From: Salinisphaera sp. Q1T1-3 | GTDB lineage: Bacteria; Pseudomonadota; Gammaproteobacteria; Nevskiales; Salinisphaeraceae | DNA length: 64,000 nucleotides | Assembly: GCF_003602005.1 (NCBI RefSeq) | Contig: NZ_QZWD01000003.1 | Location: 1 to 64,000 of the forward strand | Direction of reading: 5' to 3' | Shown: piece after piece, positions 4,958 to 54,438 of the stretch | Layout: each line of letters opens with the position of its first letter | Numbering within the stretch: position 1 is the first letter of the stretch | The notes under the pieces: generated by a model | Databases searched by the model: none | The model's input: the letters and a program-made list of their open reading frames with translations, nothing else | Told to the model about the DNA's origin: nothing | Made by a program: the position numbers and the translations under genes

Positions 4958-6657
4958 CCGAAATGGATCGCAGAGCCTATGCCGAGATGTTCGGTCCGGC
5001 GGCCGGGGATCGTCTGAGACTGGGCGATACCGCTCTGACCATCGAGATCGAGCGTGATACCGGCCACTACGGCGACGAGGTCAAGTTCGGCGGCGGCAAG
5101 GTCGTGCGGGATGGCATGGGCCAGAGCCAGGCCACCAATGACACGGCCGCGGACACCGTCATCACCAATGCGGTGATTGTGGACTGGTGGGGGATCGTCA
5201 AGGCTGACGTCGCCATTTCGGGCGGGCGCATCAGCGGTATCGGCAAGGCCGGTAACCCGGACATCATGGACGGCGTGGATATCGTCATCGGCCCGGGCAC
5301 CGAGATCATCGCCGGCGAAGGCCAGATCCTGACGGCCGGCGGCATCGATTCGCATATTCATTTCGTCTGTCCACAGCAGATCGAGGAAGCGCTGGCCTCG
5401 GGTATCACGACCATGATCGGCGGCGGCACCGGGCCGGCCACCGGGACGAAGGCAACCACGGCCACGCCCGGCCCCTGGCACATGCACCGCATGCTTCAGG
5501 CCGCGGATGCCTTTCCGATGAATCTGGCGTTTCTCGGCAAGGGCAACGCCAGCCGGCCCGAGGCGCTGCACGAGCAGATCGCGGCCGGGGCGGCCGGGCT
5601 GAAGCTGCACGAGGACTGGGGCACGACGCCGGCGGCCATCGACAACTGTCTTCGTGTGGCCGATGCCACCGATGTCCAGGTGGCGATTCATACCGATACG
5701 CTCAACGAATCCGGCTTTGTCGAAGACACCTTCGCGGCCTTCAAGGATCGGGTGATCCATACCTATCACACCGAAGGCGCCGGCGGCGGCCATGCCCCGG
5801 ACATCATCGTGGCCGCGGGCAAGCCCAACGTGCTGCCGTCTTCAACGAACCCGACGCGGCCGTACACGGTCAACACGATCGACGAGCATCTCGACATGCT
5901 CATGGTCTGTCACCACCTCTCGCCGGCGATCGCCGAGGATGTGGCCTTCGCCGATTCGCGTATCCGGCGTGAAACGATCGCCGCCGAGGATATCCTGCAC
6001 GACTTGGGAGCCTTTTCGATGATCGCATCGGATTCCCAGGCCATGGGACGCGTCGGCGAAGTCATCACGCGCACCTGGCAGACCGCGCACAAGATGCGTG
6101 TTCAGCGCGGTCCGCTACCCGGCGATGACGACAATGCCGACAATACGCGGATCAAGCGTTACATCGCCAAATACACGATCAACCCGGCGATCACGCATGG
6201 CATTGCCCACGATGTGGGCTCGGTCGAGGTCGGCAAGCTCGCCGATCTCGTGTTGTGGAAGCCGGCCTTCTTCGGCGCGAAGCCAGCCCTGGTAATCAAG
6301 GGCGGGGCGATCGCGATGGCCCCGATGGGCGACCCCAACGCCTCTATCCCGACGCCGCAGCCGGTGCATTTCCGGCCGATGTTCGGTGCTTACGGCGGTG
6401 CCGTGGCCGAAACGTCGCTGACGTTCACCTCCCAGGCCGCGGTCGATGCGGGGCTTGCCGCCCGCCTGGGCCTGGCCAAGCCGCTGGTTGCCGTTGGTGG
6501 CACGCGCTCGCTTTCCAAGGCAGACATGAAGAACAATGCCTATTGCCCGCATCTGGAAGTCGATCCGCAAACCTACGAGGTGCGTGCTGACGGGGAACTG
6601 TTAACCTGTGAGCCCGCTGCGGAATTGCCGCTCGCACAGCGCTACAGTCTCTTCTAG
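4954..6657 (+). CDS. ureC: Urease subunit alpha UreC (catalytic)
   Basis: Catalytic subunit, hydrolysing urea to ammonia and carbamate in the cytosol. At 567 residues it is full length, and every nickel-site residue falls at its textbook position: His134 and His136 (SHIHF), the carbamylated Lys217 (GLKLHEDWG), His246 and His272, the flap His320 (CHHLSP) and Asp360 (ASDSQ). The enzyme should therefore be active once nickel is inserted. It sits between ureB (4-bp overlap) and the accessory genes ureEFG. Confidence 0.98.
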
Positions 6658-6753: not shown

Positions 6754-7335
6754 ATGATCAGACTCGAAGACAAAATTTCTGCCATGCAAATCGATGGCGT
6801 CGATACCACGCTGACACTCGATTTTGACGCCCGTCAGAAGTCGCGACAGCGCGTGCAGCTCGACGATGGCAGCGATGCCGGCGTCATGCTGGCACGCGGG
6901 ACGATACTGGCCGACGGCGACGTGTTGCGCGATGCCGAGGGCACGTTCTTCGTTCGCGTGGTCGCTGCGCCCGAAGCGCTGTCCTACGTGCATTGCCACG
7001 ATCGCCTGCTGCTGAATCGCATCTGCTATCACCTCGGCAATCGACACGTGCCGCTGCAGGTCACCTGCGAGGCCGTGGCCTATCGCCACGATCACGTGCT
7101 CGATGCGATGGTCGCCGGTCTCGGTGTGGTGCCGAAACAGTGTTGTTGTGCCTTTCATCCAGAGCCGGGAGCCTATGACGGCCACGGCCACGGCCACGGC
7201 CACGGCCACGAGCACGGCCACGAGCACGGCACGTCGTCTCGCGGCCATGCCGACGGGACGGCCGATGTCGCCGATCATGCGGCCGACGCGGCTTCGACGG
7301 ACGACCTGCCGGTACGCCGGGCGGCGCACGGCTGA
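6754..7335 (+). CDS. ureE: Urease nickel chaperone UreE with histidine-rich tail
   Basis: Metallochaperone that delivers nickel to the UreDFG-urease complex. The open frame starts earlier, but the family N-terminus is MIRLEDKIS, so I use the ATG at 6754 (193 residues). The GNRHVPLQV segment (from residue 95) and the metal-site HDHVLDAM (from 112) are present. Residues about 144-158 are an alternating His-Gly/His-Glu stretch that can store several nickel ions, as in Klebsiella UreE. The tail is encoded by a tandem hexanucleotide that could slip. The 96 bp between ureC and this start show nothing recognisable. Its stop codon overlaps the ureF start. Confidence 0.93.
   Translation: MIRLEDKISAMQIDGVDTTLTLDFDARQKSRQRVQLDDGSDAGVMLARGTILADGDVLRDAEGTFFVRVVAAPEALSYVHCHDRLLLNRICYHLGNRHVPLQVTCEAVAYRHDHVLDAMVAGLGVVPKQCCCAFHPEPGAYDGHGHGHGHGHEHGHEHGTSSRGHADGTADVADHAADAASTDDLPVRRAAHG
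7180..7230 (+). repeat. Tandem hexanucleotide (GGCCAC)n inside ureE
   Basis: Five consecutive GGCCAC units are followed by alternating GAGCAC and GGCCAC units, encoding the His-Gly and His-Glu repeats of the UreE tail. Copy number could vary between strains by slippage without shifting the frame. Confidence 0.85.
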
Positions 7336-8018
7336 TGATGGATCGCGGGTTGCAGCGGCTGCTGCAGCTGGCCAGTCCGTCGCTACCGGTCGGTGCCTTT
7401 GCCTACAGCGAAGGGCTGGAAGCGGCGGTGGCCACATCCACGGTCACCGATGCCGAAACGTTGTCCGACTGGCTCTCGGCTGCCTTCGAACACTGTGTCG
7501 TGCCGCTCGATCTGGCGGTCGCGCTGCGTTTGCACGAGAAATGGCAATCCCATGATCTGGACGGCGTCTGCCGCTGGAGTCGCTTCGTCCTGGCCAGTCG
7601 CGAAACCGCCGAGCGACGGGCTCAGGAGCGCCATCTCGGCCATGCGCTGGCCAGTCTGCTGGACGGCATGTCGCTGCCCGAGGCCGCACCGTGGCGGCTT
7701 GGCGGCGGGCATGCCGCCGACGTCAGTTTCCCTGCGCTCTGGATGCTGGCGGCAGTGCGCTGGAACGTGCCGGCCGCCCCGGCCGTTGAAGCCATGGCCT
7801 GGGCCTGGCTGGAGAATCAGGTTCTGGCGGCGGTCAAGCTGATTCCGCTGGGCCAGACTGCCGGTCAGCGTCTGTTGTTCGAACTGGCCGGCGATGTGCC
7901 GGCCGGGGCTGCCCGGGCGGCCGAACTGACGGATGATGCGCTGGGTGGTTCGTTGCCCGGTGTGACCATGGCCTGCTGTGACCACGAGATTCTGTATTCA
8001 CGGCTGTATCGGTCCTAG
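7335..8018 (+). CDS. ureF: Urease accessory protein UreF
   Basis: Gate protein of the urease maturation complex that bridges UreD and UreG and controls UreG GTPase activity. The 227-residue, helical protein shows LQLASPSLPVGAFAYSEGLE at the start, the SRFVLASRETAE segment, and KLIPLGQTAGQRLL near residue 170, all typical. It starts on the last base of the ureE stop; a second ATG follows immediately. Its TAG stop lies in the CTAG that borders the repeat element immediately downstream. Confidence 0.94.
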   Translation: MMDRGLQRLLQLASPSLPVGAFAYSEGLEAAVATSTVTDAETLSDWLSAAFEHCVVPLDLAVALRLHEKWQSHDLDGVCRWSRFVLASRETAERRAQERHLGHALASLLDGMSLPEAAPWRLGGGHAADVSFPALWMLAAVRWNVPAAPAVEAMAWAWLENQVLAAVKLIPLGQTAGQRLLFELAGDVPAGAARAAELTDDALGGSLPGVTMACCDHEILYSRLYRS

Positions 8019-8313
8019 AGCTTGTTGATGTGTCGTGCGAGTCCGCGCCAAGTGCGCCCTGAAATTGACGATGGGCGGCAAGACGAGCCGTAGCACGCAT
8101 AGCGTGTCATTCTGCGCCAGCTTTCTAGAACGCTGGATTGCCGTCGTGTTTTTGATTTTGGAGCGCTTGTCCCTTTGGGTTGGGCCACAAATCCTGCCCG
8201 GCGGCGTTGCCAGCCTTGATCGTGGCACGCCACGATCGGCACCTCGCGCCTTGCCGGACACGCTGCGGCCTCTCGACGAAAAGGCGCTCGAACCAAACAT
8301 CAACAGGCCCTAG
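8015..8313 (+). repeat. MITE-like element, copy 1 (between ureF and ureG)
   Basis: A 299-bp non-coding element bounded by CTAG on both sides (8015-8018 and 8310-8313). The left end reads AGCTTGTTGATGTGTCGT and the right end is the inverted ACCAAACATCAACAGGCC. The interior matches the copy at 30210 over long stretches (CCGCGCCAAG, CCCTGAAATTGAC, GGCGGCAAGACGAG, CATTCTGCGCCAGC, ATTGCCGTCGTG) and holds an 18-bp palindrome at 8219-8236. It separates ureG from the rest of the operon. Confidence 0.85.
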
Positions 8314-8983: not shown

Positions 8984-9267
8984 CTAGGGCGTGTTGAGGT
9001 TTGGTTCGAATCCGCGCCAAGCGCTGTTTTGCGGCAAGACGAGGCGTAGCAGGCGCCGCGCAGTCGTTCTGCGCCAGGGTGCTGGAACGCTGTATTGCCG
9101 TCGTGTTTTGATTTCGGGGCACTTGTCCCGAAGGGTTGGGCCGCAAATCGCGCTTTGCGGTGTTGCCAGTCTGGATCGTGGCACGCCACGATCGGCGACT
9201 CGCGCCTTGCCGGACACGATTGGCAGTTTCCAACGCGGCGCACGCGCGAAGTGTTAATAAGCCCTAA
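8984..9267 (+). repeat. MITE-like element, copy 2 (after ureG)
   Basis: A 284-bp element with CTAG at its left border (8984-8987) and CTAA at its right (9264-9267). The left end is GGCGTGTTGAGGTTTGGTTC; the right end (GTGTTAATAAGCC) is decayed. The interior shares the CCGCGCCAAGCGC, GGCAAGACGAGGCGTAGCAGG, CTTGTCCCGAAGGGTTGGGC and CGCCTTGCCGGACACGAT blocks with the other copies and has the 18-bp palindrome at 9175-9192. It begins 2 bp after the ureG stop. The remaining ~144 bp to the permease start show nothing recognisable. Confidence 0.83.
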
Positions 9268-12125: not shown

Positions 12126-12254
12126 AACCGCAACAGGCCTTGGCACGCCGGCGCAGGAGGACTGCGCGGCGCGTGCGGCGCCTCGTCTTGCCGCCCATCT
12201 TCAATTTCAGGGCGCGCTTGGCGCGGACTCGCACGAAACCTCAACACGCCCTAC
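12126..12254 (-). repeat. Truncated MITE-like element, copy 3
   Basis: Read on the minus strand, this begins GGCGTGTTGAGGTTTCGT beside CTAC, then follows the left half of the canonical element (CGAGTCCGCGCCAAGCGC, CCCTGAAATTGA, GGCGGCAAGACGAGGCG). After about 110 bp it breaks off and runs into a second end-like sequence, GGCCTGTTGCGGTTTTAT. It looks like a deletion product or a nested remnant. Confidence 0.7.
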
Positions 12255-12587
12255 GAGCTATTGACGATATCCGCGCGGGTCATGTTGTTACCCGCAATCG
12301 CGATCCGGCGAGGCGCGTAGCGCCTGCCGTGGTCATGCCAAGGCCAAGCTGCGCAACGCCGCAGGGCGCCATTTTGAGCGCAACTCGAAGGGCCGGGCTA
12401 CTTTCCCGCGATCCGGCGTTACCGCTCGCTTGTGTCGCATGGCGACAGCGCGTTCCCGGCGCCTTGTCTGGCACGACGAGCCGCCGGCACGACTCACGCG
12501 GATCGCGTGGACAGGCCCTGGCCGCGTTGTCCAAGTCGCGCCGCCAACGGCGCCGTGGCGGCGCAAGGCCTGTGCCGATGGCACGTG
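12255..12587. other. Unexplained intergenic stretch
   Basis: About 330 bp between the repeat remnant after the nickel transporter and the 3' end of the Old Yellow Enzyme gene. I see no gene with a credible start, Shine-Dalgarno or family resemblance, no T-tract terminator, and no match to the dispersed repeat. It contains several short palindromes, such as GTTACCCGC/GCGGGTC and GGCGCGTAGCGCC. Open frames here are short and arginine-rich, as expected from GC-rich non-coding DNA. Confidence 0.6.
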
Positions 12588-19770: not shown

Positions 19771-19941
19771 CTGGGGCGTGTTGCGGATTGGTATGCGTCC
19801 GCGCCGGGCCTGTTTGCCGGCAAAACGAGGTGTCTTGAGCGGTGCCTGGTCGTGTCACCTCGCAATCCGGATGCGTGCCCTTGGCCGGGCCGGTAAGCGC
19901 TTGCCAACGTGGTGCGTGTACCGAACCGCAACAGGCCCTAG
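19771..19941 (+). repeat. Degenerate MITE-like element, copy 4
   Basis: A 171-bp relic. The left end GGGCGTGTTGCGG and the segment GTCCGCGCCGGGC resemble the canonical left end, and the right end CCGCAACAGGCC abuts CTAG at 19938-19941. The middle has been deleted or has diverged. It ends 33 bp before the glutathione transferase start. The 84 bp before it, after the DUF3634 gene, show nothing. Confidence 0.6.
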
Positions 19942-28776: not shown

Positions 28777-30213
28777 ATGCGCAATGACGACATCGATGCG
28801 CGGATCGCGGCGGCGCGCGGCGCACAGCGCGCCTGGCAGGCGCTGCCTCGGAGCCGGCGCGCGCGCCTGATCGGGCGTATACGTCATACGCTGGCCGAGC
28901 AGGCCGATGAGGTGGTGGCCGCGGTCGGCGATCGTTTCGACCGGGGCCCGGCCGAAACCCTGACCGCCGAGATCATCCCGTTGGCCGATGCCGCACGCTT
29001 CATCCAGCGGTCCGCGGCGCGCGTGCTGGCCCCGCGCCGGGTTGGACGCGCCGGCCGGCCGGCCTGGCTTTGGGGCGTGCGCGGCCGCATCGAGCGTATT
29101 CCGCACGGCGTGGTAGCGATCATCGCGCCGGGCAATTACCGGCTGCTGCTGGCCGGAGTGCAGATTCTGCAGGCGCTCGCCGCCGGTAACGCCGTGGTCG
29201 TCAAGCCGGCGCCGGGCGCGGCGGCGCCGCTGGTCTGGTTACGTGCGGCGCTCATTGCGGCCGGCCTGCCGGCCGATCTGTTTCAGCTGCTCGATGACGA
29301 GACCGCCACGGGCCGGGCGTTGGCCGGGGCGCGTATCGACAAGCTCGTGCTCACCGGCGCGCGTGCCACCGGACAAGCCGTGGCGAGGCAGCTGGCCGCG
29401 CGTGCCGTGCCGGCCGCGCTCGAGTTGTCGGGTGACGACGCTGTGTTCGTGCTCGATTCGGCTGATATCGAGATGACGGCACGAAGCATTGTCTGGGGCA
29501 TGGGCCTGAACGGTGGGGCCACCTGTATCGCGCCGCGTCGTATCTACGTGGCGGCGGGCCGTTATCCGGCACTGGTCGCGGCCTTGAACGAGGCGCTGGC
29601 CCAGGCGCCCGCGCGTACGGTGGCCGAGGCGCCTTTTGCGATCGCACATCGCGCGATCGCAGACGCTGCTGCGGCCGGCTGGCATGTGCTGGGGCGCGCA
29701 CCGGGCAGCGATACGCCACACATGGCGCCCTGTATCTTGGCGCATGCCGAGGCCGACCGGCCGGCGCTGCCGGGCGATCTGTTCGCGCCGGCGGCTTCTA
29801 TGATCGCCGTGGCCGACATCGACGAGGCGCTGCGCCGGGATCAGTCCAGCCGGTATGCCCTTGGCGCCGCGGTGTTCGGGGCACCTGCGGCGGCCCATGC
29901 CCTGGCGGACCGGCTCGACGCCGGCATGATCACCATCAATGATCTCGTCGTCCCGACTGCGGATCCGCGGGTGCCGTTCGCCGGCGGTCGCGGCAGCGGT
30001 TACGGCGCGACGCGCGGCCTGGAAGGATTGCGTGCGATGACCCGGCCACGCGTCATCATGCGCCGTCACACGCGGGCGCGGCCGCATCTGGCGCCGCCCC
30101 GACCGCGCGACGCGGCTTTGTTCAAGGCCTATCTCGGCATCGCGCACGGTCGACGCCTGGCAGGGCGTTGGGCTGCGTTGAAAGCACTCCTGGCCGCCGT
30201 CCGCGCGGCCTAG
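28777..30213 (+). CDS. Aldehyde dehydrogenase, probable carotenoid aldehyde oxidase
   Basis: NAD(P)-dependent aldehyde dehydrogenase of 478 residues. Asn120 (IIAPGNY), Lys143 (VVVKPAP), Glu216 (LELSGDD) and the nucleophile Cys250 (GGATCIAPRR) are at the family positions. Placed divergently beside CrtN/CrtP-like genes, it probably converts a 4,4'-diaponeurosporenal-type aldehyde to the acid that the glycosyltransferase then uses, like staphylococcal AldH; this is inference from context. The C-terminus from about residue 428 is Arg/Ala rich and longer than usual. Its TAG stop is part of the CTAG border of the adjacent repeat. Confidence 0.82.
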   Translation: MRNDDIDARIAAARGAQRAWQALPRSRRARLIGRIRHTLAEQADEVVAAVGDRFDRGPAETLTAEIIPLADAARFIQRSAARVLAPRRVGRAGRPAWLWGVRGRIERIPHGVVAIIAPGNYRLLLAGVQILQALAAGNAVVVKPAPGAAAPLVWLRAALIAAGLPADLFQLLDDETATGRALAGARIDKLVLTGARATGQAVARQLAARAVPAALELSGDDAVFVLDSADIEMTARSIVWGMGLNGGATCIAPRRIYVAAGRYPALVAALNEALAQAPARTVAEAPFAIAHRAIADAAAAGWHVLGRAPGSDTPHMAPCILAHAEADRPALPGDLFAPAASMIAVADIDEALRRDQSSRYALGAAVFGAPAAAHALADRLDAGMITINDLVVPTADPRVPFAGGRGSGYGATRGLEGLRAMTRPRVIMRRHTRARPHLAPPRPRDAALFKAYLGIAHGRRLAGRWAALKALLAAVRAA

Positions 30214-30485
30214 GGCCTGTTGATGTTTCGTGCGAGTCCGCGCCAAGCGCGCCCTGAAATTGACAATGGGCGGCAAGACGAGGCGTCGCAGGCATAGCGT
30301 GTCATTCTGCGCCAGCCTGCTAGAACGCTGTATTGCCGTCGTGTTTTTGATTTTGGGGCGCTTGTCCCGAAGGGTTGGGCCGCCCATGAAAAATCGACGA
30401 TGGGCGCCCGGCGACTCGCGCCTTGCCGGACACACTGCGGTCTCTCGACGAAAAGGCGCTCGAACGAAACATCAACAGGCCCTAG
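30210..30485 (+). repeat. MITE-like element, copy 5 (best-preserved ends)
   Basis: A 276-bp element flanked by CTAG at 30210-30213 and 30482-30485. The terminal inverted repeats are GGCCTGTTGATGTTTCGT on the left and its exact reverse complement, ACGAAACATCAACAGGCC, on the right. It has no open frame with a start signal. The left CTAG contains the stop of the aldehyde dehydrogenase gene and the right CTAG contains, on the other strand, the stop of the DUF2141 gene. The 18-bp internal palindrome of other copies is replaced here by CATGAAAAATCGACGATGGG. Confidence 0.92.
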
Positions 30486-31102: not shown

Positions 31103-31333
31103 ATAGGGCGTGTTGATGTTTCGTACGAGGGCCGTGTTGGCGCCACAAATCGTGTCCGGCAAGGCGCGAGTCGCCGGGGCGGGATTTGTGGCCCAACCCT
31201 TCGGGACAAGTGCTGTTTTGCGGCAATCCAGCGTTCTAGCCCGCTGGCGCAGAATGACTGCACGACGCGCACTACGCCTCATCTTGCCGCAGAACAGCGC
31301 TTGGCGGGGACTCGCACGAAGCCTCAACACGCC

Positions 31334-31337
<4 letters not shown>
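31103..31337 (-). repeat. MITE-like element, copy 6 (inverted, nearly complete)
   Basis: A 235-bp element in the opposite orientation to copy 5, bounded by CTAG at 31334-31337 and ATAG at 31103-31106. On the minus strand it starts GGCGTGTTGAGGCTTCGTGC and ends ACGAAACATCAACACGCC. Conserved internal blocks include CATTCTGCGCCAGCGGGCTA, CTTGTCCCGAAGGGTTGGGC and CGACTCGCGCCTTGCCGGAC. The stop codon of waaF lies in its CTAG border. Confidence 0.88.
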
Positions 31338-33447
<2,110 letters not shown>

Positions 33448-33593
33448 TCAACTCATGCCGCGCGGCCCGTGCGCGAGACACGGCCTGAAACCGCGACGCG
33501 CCTGCGGGCGTATCGAGGGTGGGCGTGCCATTCACGAACGTGCCGCGACGGATTGTCACGGCCCGGCGACGGGCCGGTCTATGACGTGAGGCG

Positions 33594-33703
33594 TGGCGTT
33601 GCGAGCCTTGATCGTGGCACGCCACGATACGGCGACTTGCGCCTTGCCGGACACGATTTGTGGCGCCAACGCGGCGCTCGAACGAACCCTCAACACGCCC
33701 TAG
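33594..33703 (+). repeat. Truncated MITE-like element, copy 7 (right half)
   Basis: About 110 bp matching the right half of the element: the 18-bp palindrome ATCGTGGCACGCCACGAT at 33611-33628, the CGCCTTGCCGGACACGAT block, and a right end CTCAACACGCC abutting CTAG at 33700-33703. The left half is missing. It lies in the 347-bp gap between hemB and arsS; the ~200 bp to its left hold nothing recognisable. Confidence 0.82.
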
Positions 33704-54150: not shown

Positions 54151-54438
54151 TCGGGCCTGTTGATGTGTGGTCCGGGCATCGGGTGGGCGGCCGTGGGCCG
54201 AAGCCGCGCTGCGCGGGATGGGGCGCCGCGGCGCCGTGGCAATAGATTGTTGTGCGGTCATGTGCCCGTCGTTTTCAGTGGCCCCCCGATTCGTCGGCAC
54301 GGGCGGTCGGGCCGCCACCGGGTCGTGTTTGTCGAGCGTGGCTTGTCTGCACGCCCGGCGCACGAGGCATGCGGTATGCTTCCTGTGTGCATTGAAAAAC
54401 GCCTGTCCGGGGCTGGCACGAAACATCGTCACGGGTTA
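54151..54438 (-). repeat. Possible degenerate MITE-like element, copy 8
   Basis: The ~300-bp gap between the outer-membrane factor and adaptor genes has, on the minus strand, CGATGTTTCGTGCCAG just after the TAA stop of the first gene. Just before the adaptor Shine-Dalgarno it has ACACATCAACAGGCCCGA. These match the left and right element ends, at the expected distance of about 288 bp. The interior does not resemble the other copies, so this is either a decayed copy or another element sharing the same ends. Confidence 0.5.

Follow-up and report, generated by a model that had tools for sequence, protein, structure and literature searches.

A short repeat recurs along the window (the whole 64,000-nucleotide stretch of Salinisphaera sp. 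Q1T1-3 DNA analysed here), most clearly at 30210-30485, and raises the question of what these elements are, how they move, and what their interiors are for. The initial annotation took them for MITE-like elements. They are indeed short, non-coding and bounded by terminal inverted repeats, as MITEs are, and no copy is predicted inside a gene or as one. The following copies were placed.

8015-8313, plus strand: MITE copy 1, 299 bp including the CTAG flanks (repeat finding and alignment; structure model 8018-8310)
8984-9267, plus strand: MITE copy 2, right end decayed, TA..TA context (repeat finding and alignment; structure model 8987-9264)
12130-12253, minus strand: MITE copy 3, partial, one end and the left arm (repeat finding; profile 12141-12253; structure model 12130-12191)
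12255-12518, minus strand: diverged second element adjoining copy 3 (structure model R2, E 5.6e-22, model positions 1-265; profile HMM 12259-12471)
19771-19941, plus strand: decayed MITE copy with internal deletion (repeat finding and alignment; structure model R2, E 2.8e-11 at 19774-19938)
30210-30485, plus strand: MITE copy 5, best ends (structure model 30213-30482)
31103-31337, minus strand: MITE copy 6, inverted (repeat finding and alignment; structure model R2 31106-31334, E 5.9e-44)
33506-33703, plus strand: MITE copy 7, left half eroded (repeat finding and profile; structure model R2 33506-33700, E 8e-12)

Copy 5 reads CTAG + GGCCTGTTGATGTTTCGT ... ACGAAACATCAACAGGCC + CTAG, with the matched inverted ends and the CTAG outside both that had been described for it. 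Its two CTAGs supply the stop codons of two convergent flanking ORFs (ending at 30213 on the plus strand and at 30482 on the minus strand), and the gene upstream of copy 1 (ORF 7335-8018) ends with a TAG stop that lies in the left CTAG of that copy. Seven of the eight loci originally listed were recovered by repeat finding and the structure model, but the candidate at 54151-54438 was missed by both the sequence profile and the structure model, resembles the others only at its outermost ends, and is unproven. The copy first given as 33594-33703 is real but extends leftwards to 33506, and the list was incomplete in lacking the element at 12255-12518, neither end of which is of the GGGC type. Elsewhere in the window, the Rfam 5' ureB sRNA model RF02514 matched 5103-5389 on the minus strand with 109.5 bits, a match that may merely reflect conserved coding sequence; the two genes around copy 1, near this match, look like what we take to be the urease accessory genes ureF and ureG.

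The search of the full genome and of relatives that the annotation had proposed revealed a large family. With one mismatch allowed, the terminal-repeat pattern TAGGGCSTGTTGAKG matched the 3.87-Mb genome (59 contigs) 311 times (155 + 156), against 0 + 0 for a reversed-pattern control, and the best copy aligned to dozens of loci over about 200-320 bp each. A sequence profile placed 59 loci in 698 kb of this genome (two contigs, C11 and C33), and the structure model gave at least 150 matches over both strands, corresponding to at least about 100 separate loci. Copies were present in 13 of 13 Salinisphaera congeners sampled; outside the genus, sequence search detected them in only 1 of 27 genomes.

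The annotation further proposed that an IS5-family parent provides the transposase in trans. A genus-wide transposase search, followed by a scan of the transposase loci for terminal repeats, identified an 860-bp IS with the terminal repeats of the MITE in the same genome (L084, G000:C58:85631-86490) and related IS of 855-860 bp in three other genomes. The 249-aa product is an IS5-family transposase (NF033580, transpos_IS5_3, 249 bits with a cut-off of 110, E 5.4e-74) that also matches PF13340 and PF01609 and presumably belongs to the IS427 subgroup. Six of six IS copies sit in CTA[GG..CC]TAG or TAA, two of them with one altered base at one end; the full-length element that had been asked for, with the same ends and in a CTA..TAG context, thus exists. 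The bases following TGTT vary in parallel for IS and MITE. Subtypes GATG/GAGG and GCCG are found on both in Salinisphaera, CCCG on a Pseudomonas avellanae IS and on MITEs of three sampled genomes (L359, L361, and L366), and GACG on IS of Azomonas and Terasakiispira and on MITEs of Halomonas, Azotobacter, and a P. aeruginosa plasmid. The end subtypes already noticed among the repeats are therefore mirrored among the IS, and such co-variation is predicted by transposase recognition in trans. Mobilisation of the GGG-ended families by IS5-family transposases is thus well supported at the level of sequence, and the transposase found here would be the one acting on the MITEs. For elements with GAGCCTGTCTGTGAATAA ends, no partner IS was found beside these ends in 16 fetched regions. 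Several IS5-family elements (L084:1142-1260, L207, and L208) carry an inverted repeat directly before the transposase start, e.g., GGCGAACTCG..CGAGTTCGCC-ATG, and this repeat may keep read-through transcripts from being translated.

CTAG had been read as a 4-bp target duplication fitting a YTAR preference. An IS5-type target, CTAR, stands, but the duplication appears to be shorter. At copy 2, the host sequence is CTGATC-TA-[GGGCG..GCCC]-TA-AAAC, and a relative (G009) has CTGAGC-TA-AAAC at the same place; the single TA of this empty site implies that TA is what was duplicated. IS copies L071 and L207, with CTAG on the left and CTAA on the right, likewise fit a duplication of TA and not of CTAG. 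The duplication is therefore better read as TA inside CTAR. Copy 1 is absent from five relatives, in which the flanking genes lie only a few dozen bases apart. Empty sites in relatives were thus found as anticipated, but the one at copy 2 holds a single TA instead of a single CTAG.

The annotation also suggested successive waves of insertion, for which the support is indirect. Between two genomes of about 93% identity (G011 and G012), the five copies checked all occupy shared sites, so that most copies are older than the split of the two and the comparison is uninformative for empty sites. In the complete genome G161, identical 266-bp copies at different TA sites (L395:301-566 and L396:301-566) look like a sign of recent transposition. 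Many contigs of the G009 assembly (ends L050-L056) stop within one near-identical element, breaks that are probably due to its recent expansion. Shared ends, TA context, empty sites, and recent identical copies together establish, as far as sequence comparison can, insertion at TA sites.

The interior, which the annotation missed, contains a conserved folded core common to elements in many other genera. In this fold, about 265 nt in total, the terminal repeats pair as a 27-31-bp stem; inside it lie two arms, each about 100 nt long, with a tiny CCC-N3-GGG hairpin separating them. The exact end pattern of copy 5 had no match in the named genomes searched; a degenerate version alone retrieved 261-268-bp elements from Halomonas, Vreelandella, Vibrio, Endozoicomonas, and strain G21_0, with ends as in Salinisphaera and interiors of low similarity. 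These elements were collected by their ends and not by structure, so that fold statistics on them do not lean towards structure, and their unconstrained minimum-energy folds are alike (stem 27-29 bp, arm 97-103 nt, hairpin 7-9 nt, arm 96-101 nt); L320 and L189 of the same set have nearly the same fold.

Among 26 Salinisphaera copies, 23 of 99 pairs were changed on both sides with 95.9% of cells paired, and the covariation score was reached by none of 500 shuffles. A covariance model built from Salinisphaera only scored 151 bits in Halomonas, 144 in Vreelandella, 98 in Vibrio, and 95 in Endozoicomonas, compared with 73, 69, 4, and 13 bits, respectively, for a sequence profile from the same alignment. 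The same model detected an element of S. hydrothermalis with the same fold behind unrelated ends, GAGCCTATTCC. In larger sets, which were found with and aligned to the structure model, so that their figures lean towards structure, 33 elements with a mean identity of 53% had 90.8% of cells paired (60.4% when shuffled and 37-42% when slid) and compensatory changes at 85 of 99 pairs, and 39 of 45 elements adopted the exact architecture in an unconstrained fold, against 0 of 900 interior shuffles. In many copies of the host genome, the right arm is rearranged and the fold is not exact. The arms are partly inverted copies of one another (62% versus 52% direct) and share an inverted motif, CAAGGC..AACGC flanking an internal loop, with a YATT-type apical loop; because this motif is inverted between the arms, both strands fold alike. 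The annotation had named a fold with compensatory changes as evidence against a mobile element. Such a fold is present, and mobility stands all the same; the elements are at once structured and mobile.

The same shape occurs at 34-85% identity in Halomonas, Vreelandella, Vibrio, Endozoicomonas, Azotobacter, and a P. aeruginosa plasmid. A second covariance model, built across genera and applied at E <= 1e-5 (E-values are rough), matched 106 of 369 sampled Gammaproteobacteria genomes, representing 84 of 271 genera, and 107 of 399 genomes sampled across Pseudomonadota, other classes among them. Among the matches listed, elements are full-length (about 265 nt), some with unrelated terminal repeats. 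Loci read back measure 261-278 bp, mostly 264-266, with TA usually on at least one side and many different ends; in G315, most paired ends are exactly 265 bp apart. Among named hosts, the model confirmed elements in Azotobacter chroococcum, in Halomonas sp. PA16-9, and on a P. aeruginosa plasmid, with a partial match in Methylophaga frappieri, and sequence searches with one element each gave no match in E. coli genomes or phages. Shortened elements of 69, 112, 174, and 178 bp retain both ends; forms lacking one or both arms occur in Pseudomonas (L236:760-828, 69 bp), Vreelandella (L252:4915-5092, 178 bp), and Halomonas (L268:2012-2185, 174 bp). What is conserved in the core across Pseudomonadota is thus its architecture and motif rather than its letters, and it stands behind terminal repeats of several unrelated kinds. 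Since its shape persists behind unrelated ends, we infer that selection acts on the core as a separate unit. We see about even chances that these elements form one phylum-wide class, spread over many genera of several Pseudomonadota classes, whose conserved unit is the folded core of about 265 nt and not the terminal repeat, with ends swapped to suit different transposases, which would imply a shared function of the core at the DNA or RNA level.

Placement among genes bears on what such a function might be. With genes predicted by a simple codon-usage script, all 59 copies in 698 kb of the host genome fall outside genes. Convergent genes flank 25 of 58 copies, where intergenic length would predict 19% (p 1.8e-5); among full-length copies, this bias is less pronounced (9 of 26, p 0.04). 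Targeting of stop codons was considered and set aside: CTAG coincides with the TAG stop of a gene in 9 of 26 full-length copies and in 31 of 153 background CTAGs (p 0.09), an overlap not shown to go beyond what the scarcity of CTAG and its frequent position at stops would give. Outside the elements, its density is 0.22 per kb where 3.3 would be expected. Contigs C11 and C33 together hold 209 CTAGs in 698 kb, about 11-fold below the expectation from base composition (3.3 per kb), and about a quarter of those remaining are in or at MITE copies. The placement data suit a strong hairpin, be it tolerated or useful at 3' ends, and are compatible with DNA and RNA roles alike.

One tentative reading of the core is that of a functional RNA, co-transcribed with flanking genes and cut or bound in the manner of the RNase III-like handling of Neisseria NEMIS. 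It would account for the compensatory changes and the bias towards convergent gene ends, and it has precedent in reviews (PMC2229807, PMC10969869). However, the balance of G-U and A-C counts does not differ between the strands (heterogeneity chi2 29 on 32 df), which leaves a strand-specific RNA role unsupported, and no Rfam family matches: Rfam 15 returned nothing at gathering score for the window repeats and five other repeat-bearing loci. It is likewise possible, though doubtful, that the core acts as cruciform DNA or as a site for a host protein, on which efficient transposition or synapsis would depend. The symmetry of the fold on both strands, the partly inverted arms, and the fixed total length speak for such a role; the short forms with both ends speak against it and imply that mobility does not strictly require the core. 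A further reading holds that these are plain MITEs in which a mutational process, template-switch correction of quasi-palindromes, keeps the palindromic interior perfect while the fold itself goes unselected; it seems improbable to us. Such correction yields paired changes without selection, and the elements are long quasi-palindromes that the model matches on both strands, but the overall length (mostly 264-266), the position of the junction, the length of the arms, the mini-hairpin, and the loop motif CAAGGC / AACGC, which stays unpaired, recur in families of only 34-60% identity, and template switching would erase unpaired loops, not hold them at fixed places. REP/REPIN elements moved by a Y1 (RAYT) transposase share the high copy number, extragenic location, and palindromic nature, but the length of about 265, the TA duplication, and ends common to DDE-type IS5-family IS make this origin very improbable.

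We therefore favour, with considerable though not full confidence, the view that the repeats are non-autonomous MITEs served by an IS5-family transposase in trans, with a conserved folded core selected in its own right. The transposase would bind the outermost 17-20 bp of each terminal inverted repeat, GGG(C/T)NTGTTNNNGTTTC, and insertion would occur at TA, mostly within CTAG or CTAA, with duplication of TA. A host factor might bind or process the arms with their conserved internal loops, in the form of cruciform DNA or of RNA transcribed from either strand, and thereby keep the insertion tolerable or transposable, which is the most likely reason for conservation of the core. Between convergent genes, a strong, orientation-independent hairpin would do the least harm or might act as a 3'-end barrier, and either could underlie the excess of copies there. 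Non-coding MITEs, an IS5-family parent in trans, and empty sites thus survive from the initial reading, while the CTAG duplication does not and the core had been overlooked.

MITEs are already known, as are IS5-derived MITEs with CTAG targets. MITEPsy1 of Pseudomonas syringae is ascribed to an IS5-family IS, targets CTAG or YTAA, and transposes in vivo; it differs in its 100-bp length, its terminal repeat GGAAGGTCTGAAAAAGCC, and a reported 4-nt duplication, and a two-arm core is not described for it (PMC3189936). MITEs with stable folds are known as well (PMC2229807, PMC10969869). In the open literature, with ISfinder and subscription journals outside the search, we found no description of a two-armed class of about 265 nt, which is apparently widespread and undescribed. 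Bacterial MITEs are usually described species by species, as sequence repeats; one architecture that recurs in between about a quarter and a third of the Pseudomonadota genomes sampled, with its sequence replaced and its ends swapped, would mean that selection acts strongly on the structure of some MITE interiors. A covariance model would locate such elements anywhere, and the purpose of a MITE interior would become directly testable.

Among known systems, IS5-family IS with TA/YTAR targets (NF033580) resemble the repeats in terminal repeats and CTAR target, and in transposase family and size (about 860 bp) match the parent IS, whereas the repeats carry no transposase and have an interior unrelated to that of the IS. 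ERIC, Correia/NEMIS, RUP, and YPAL are likewise small, mobile, and mostly TA-flanked, with transcripts that fold stably, but they measure about 100-200 bp, mostly form a single stem-loop without arms, and are each known from one or a few genera (PMC2229807). The R0, R2, R6, and R200 repeats of Pseudomonas fluorescens are MITE-like, with R0 and R2 ends matching IS, and show tail-repeat-tail placement, so that a tail-to-tail bias is already known there; they are 89, 110, 177, and 320 bp long, respectively, and a shared two-arm core is not reported (PMC2718517). The CIR repeats of Caulobacter and Brucella share two arms and a conserved predicted structure with the elements described here, but at about 110 bp they have a linker between the arms and no terminal stem joining the ends (PMC2229807).
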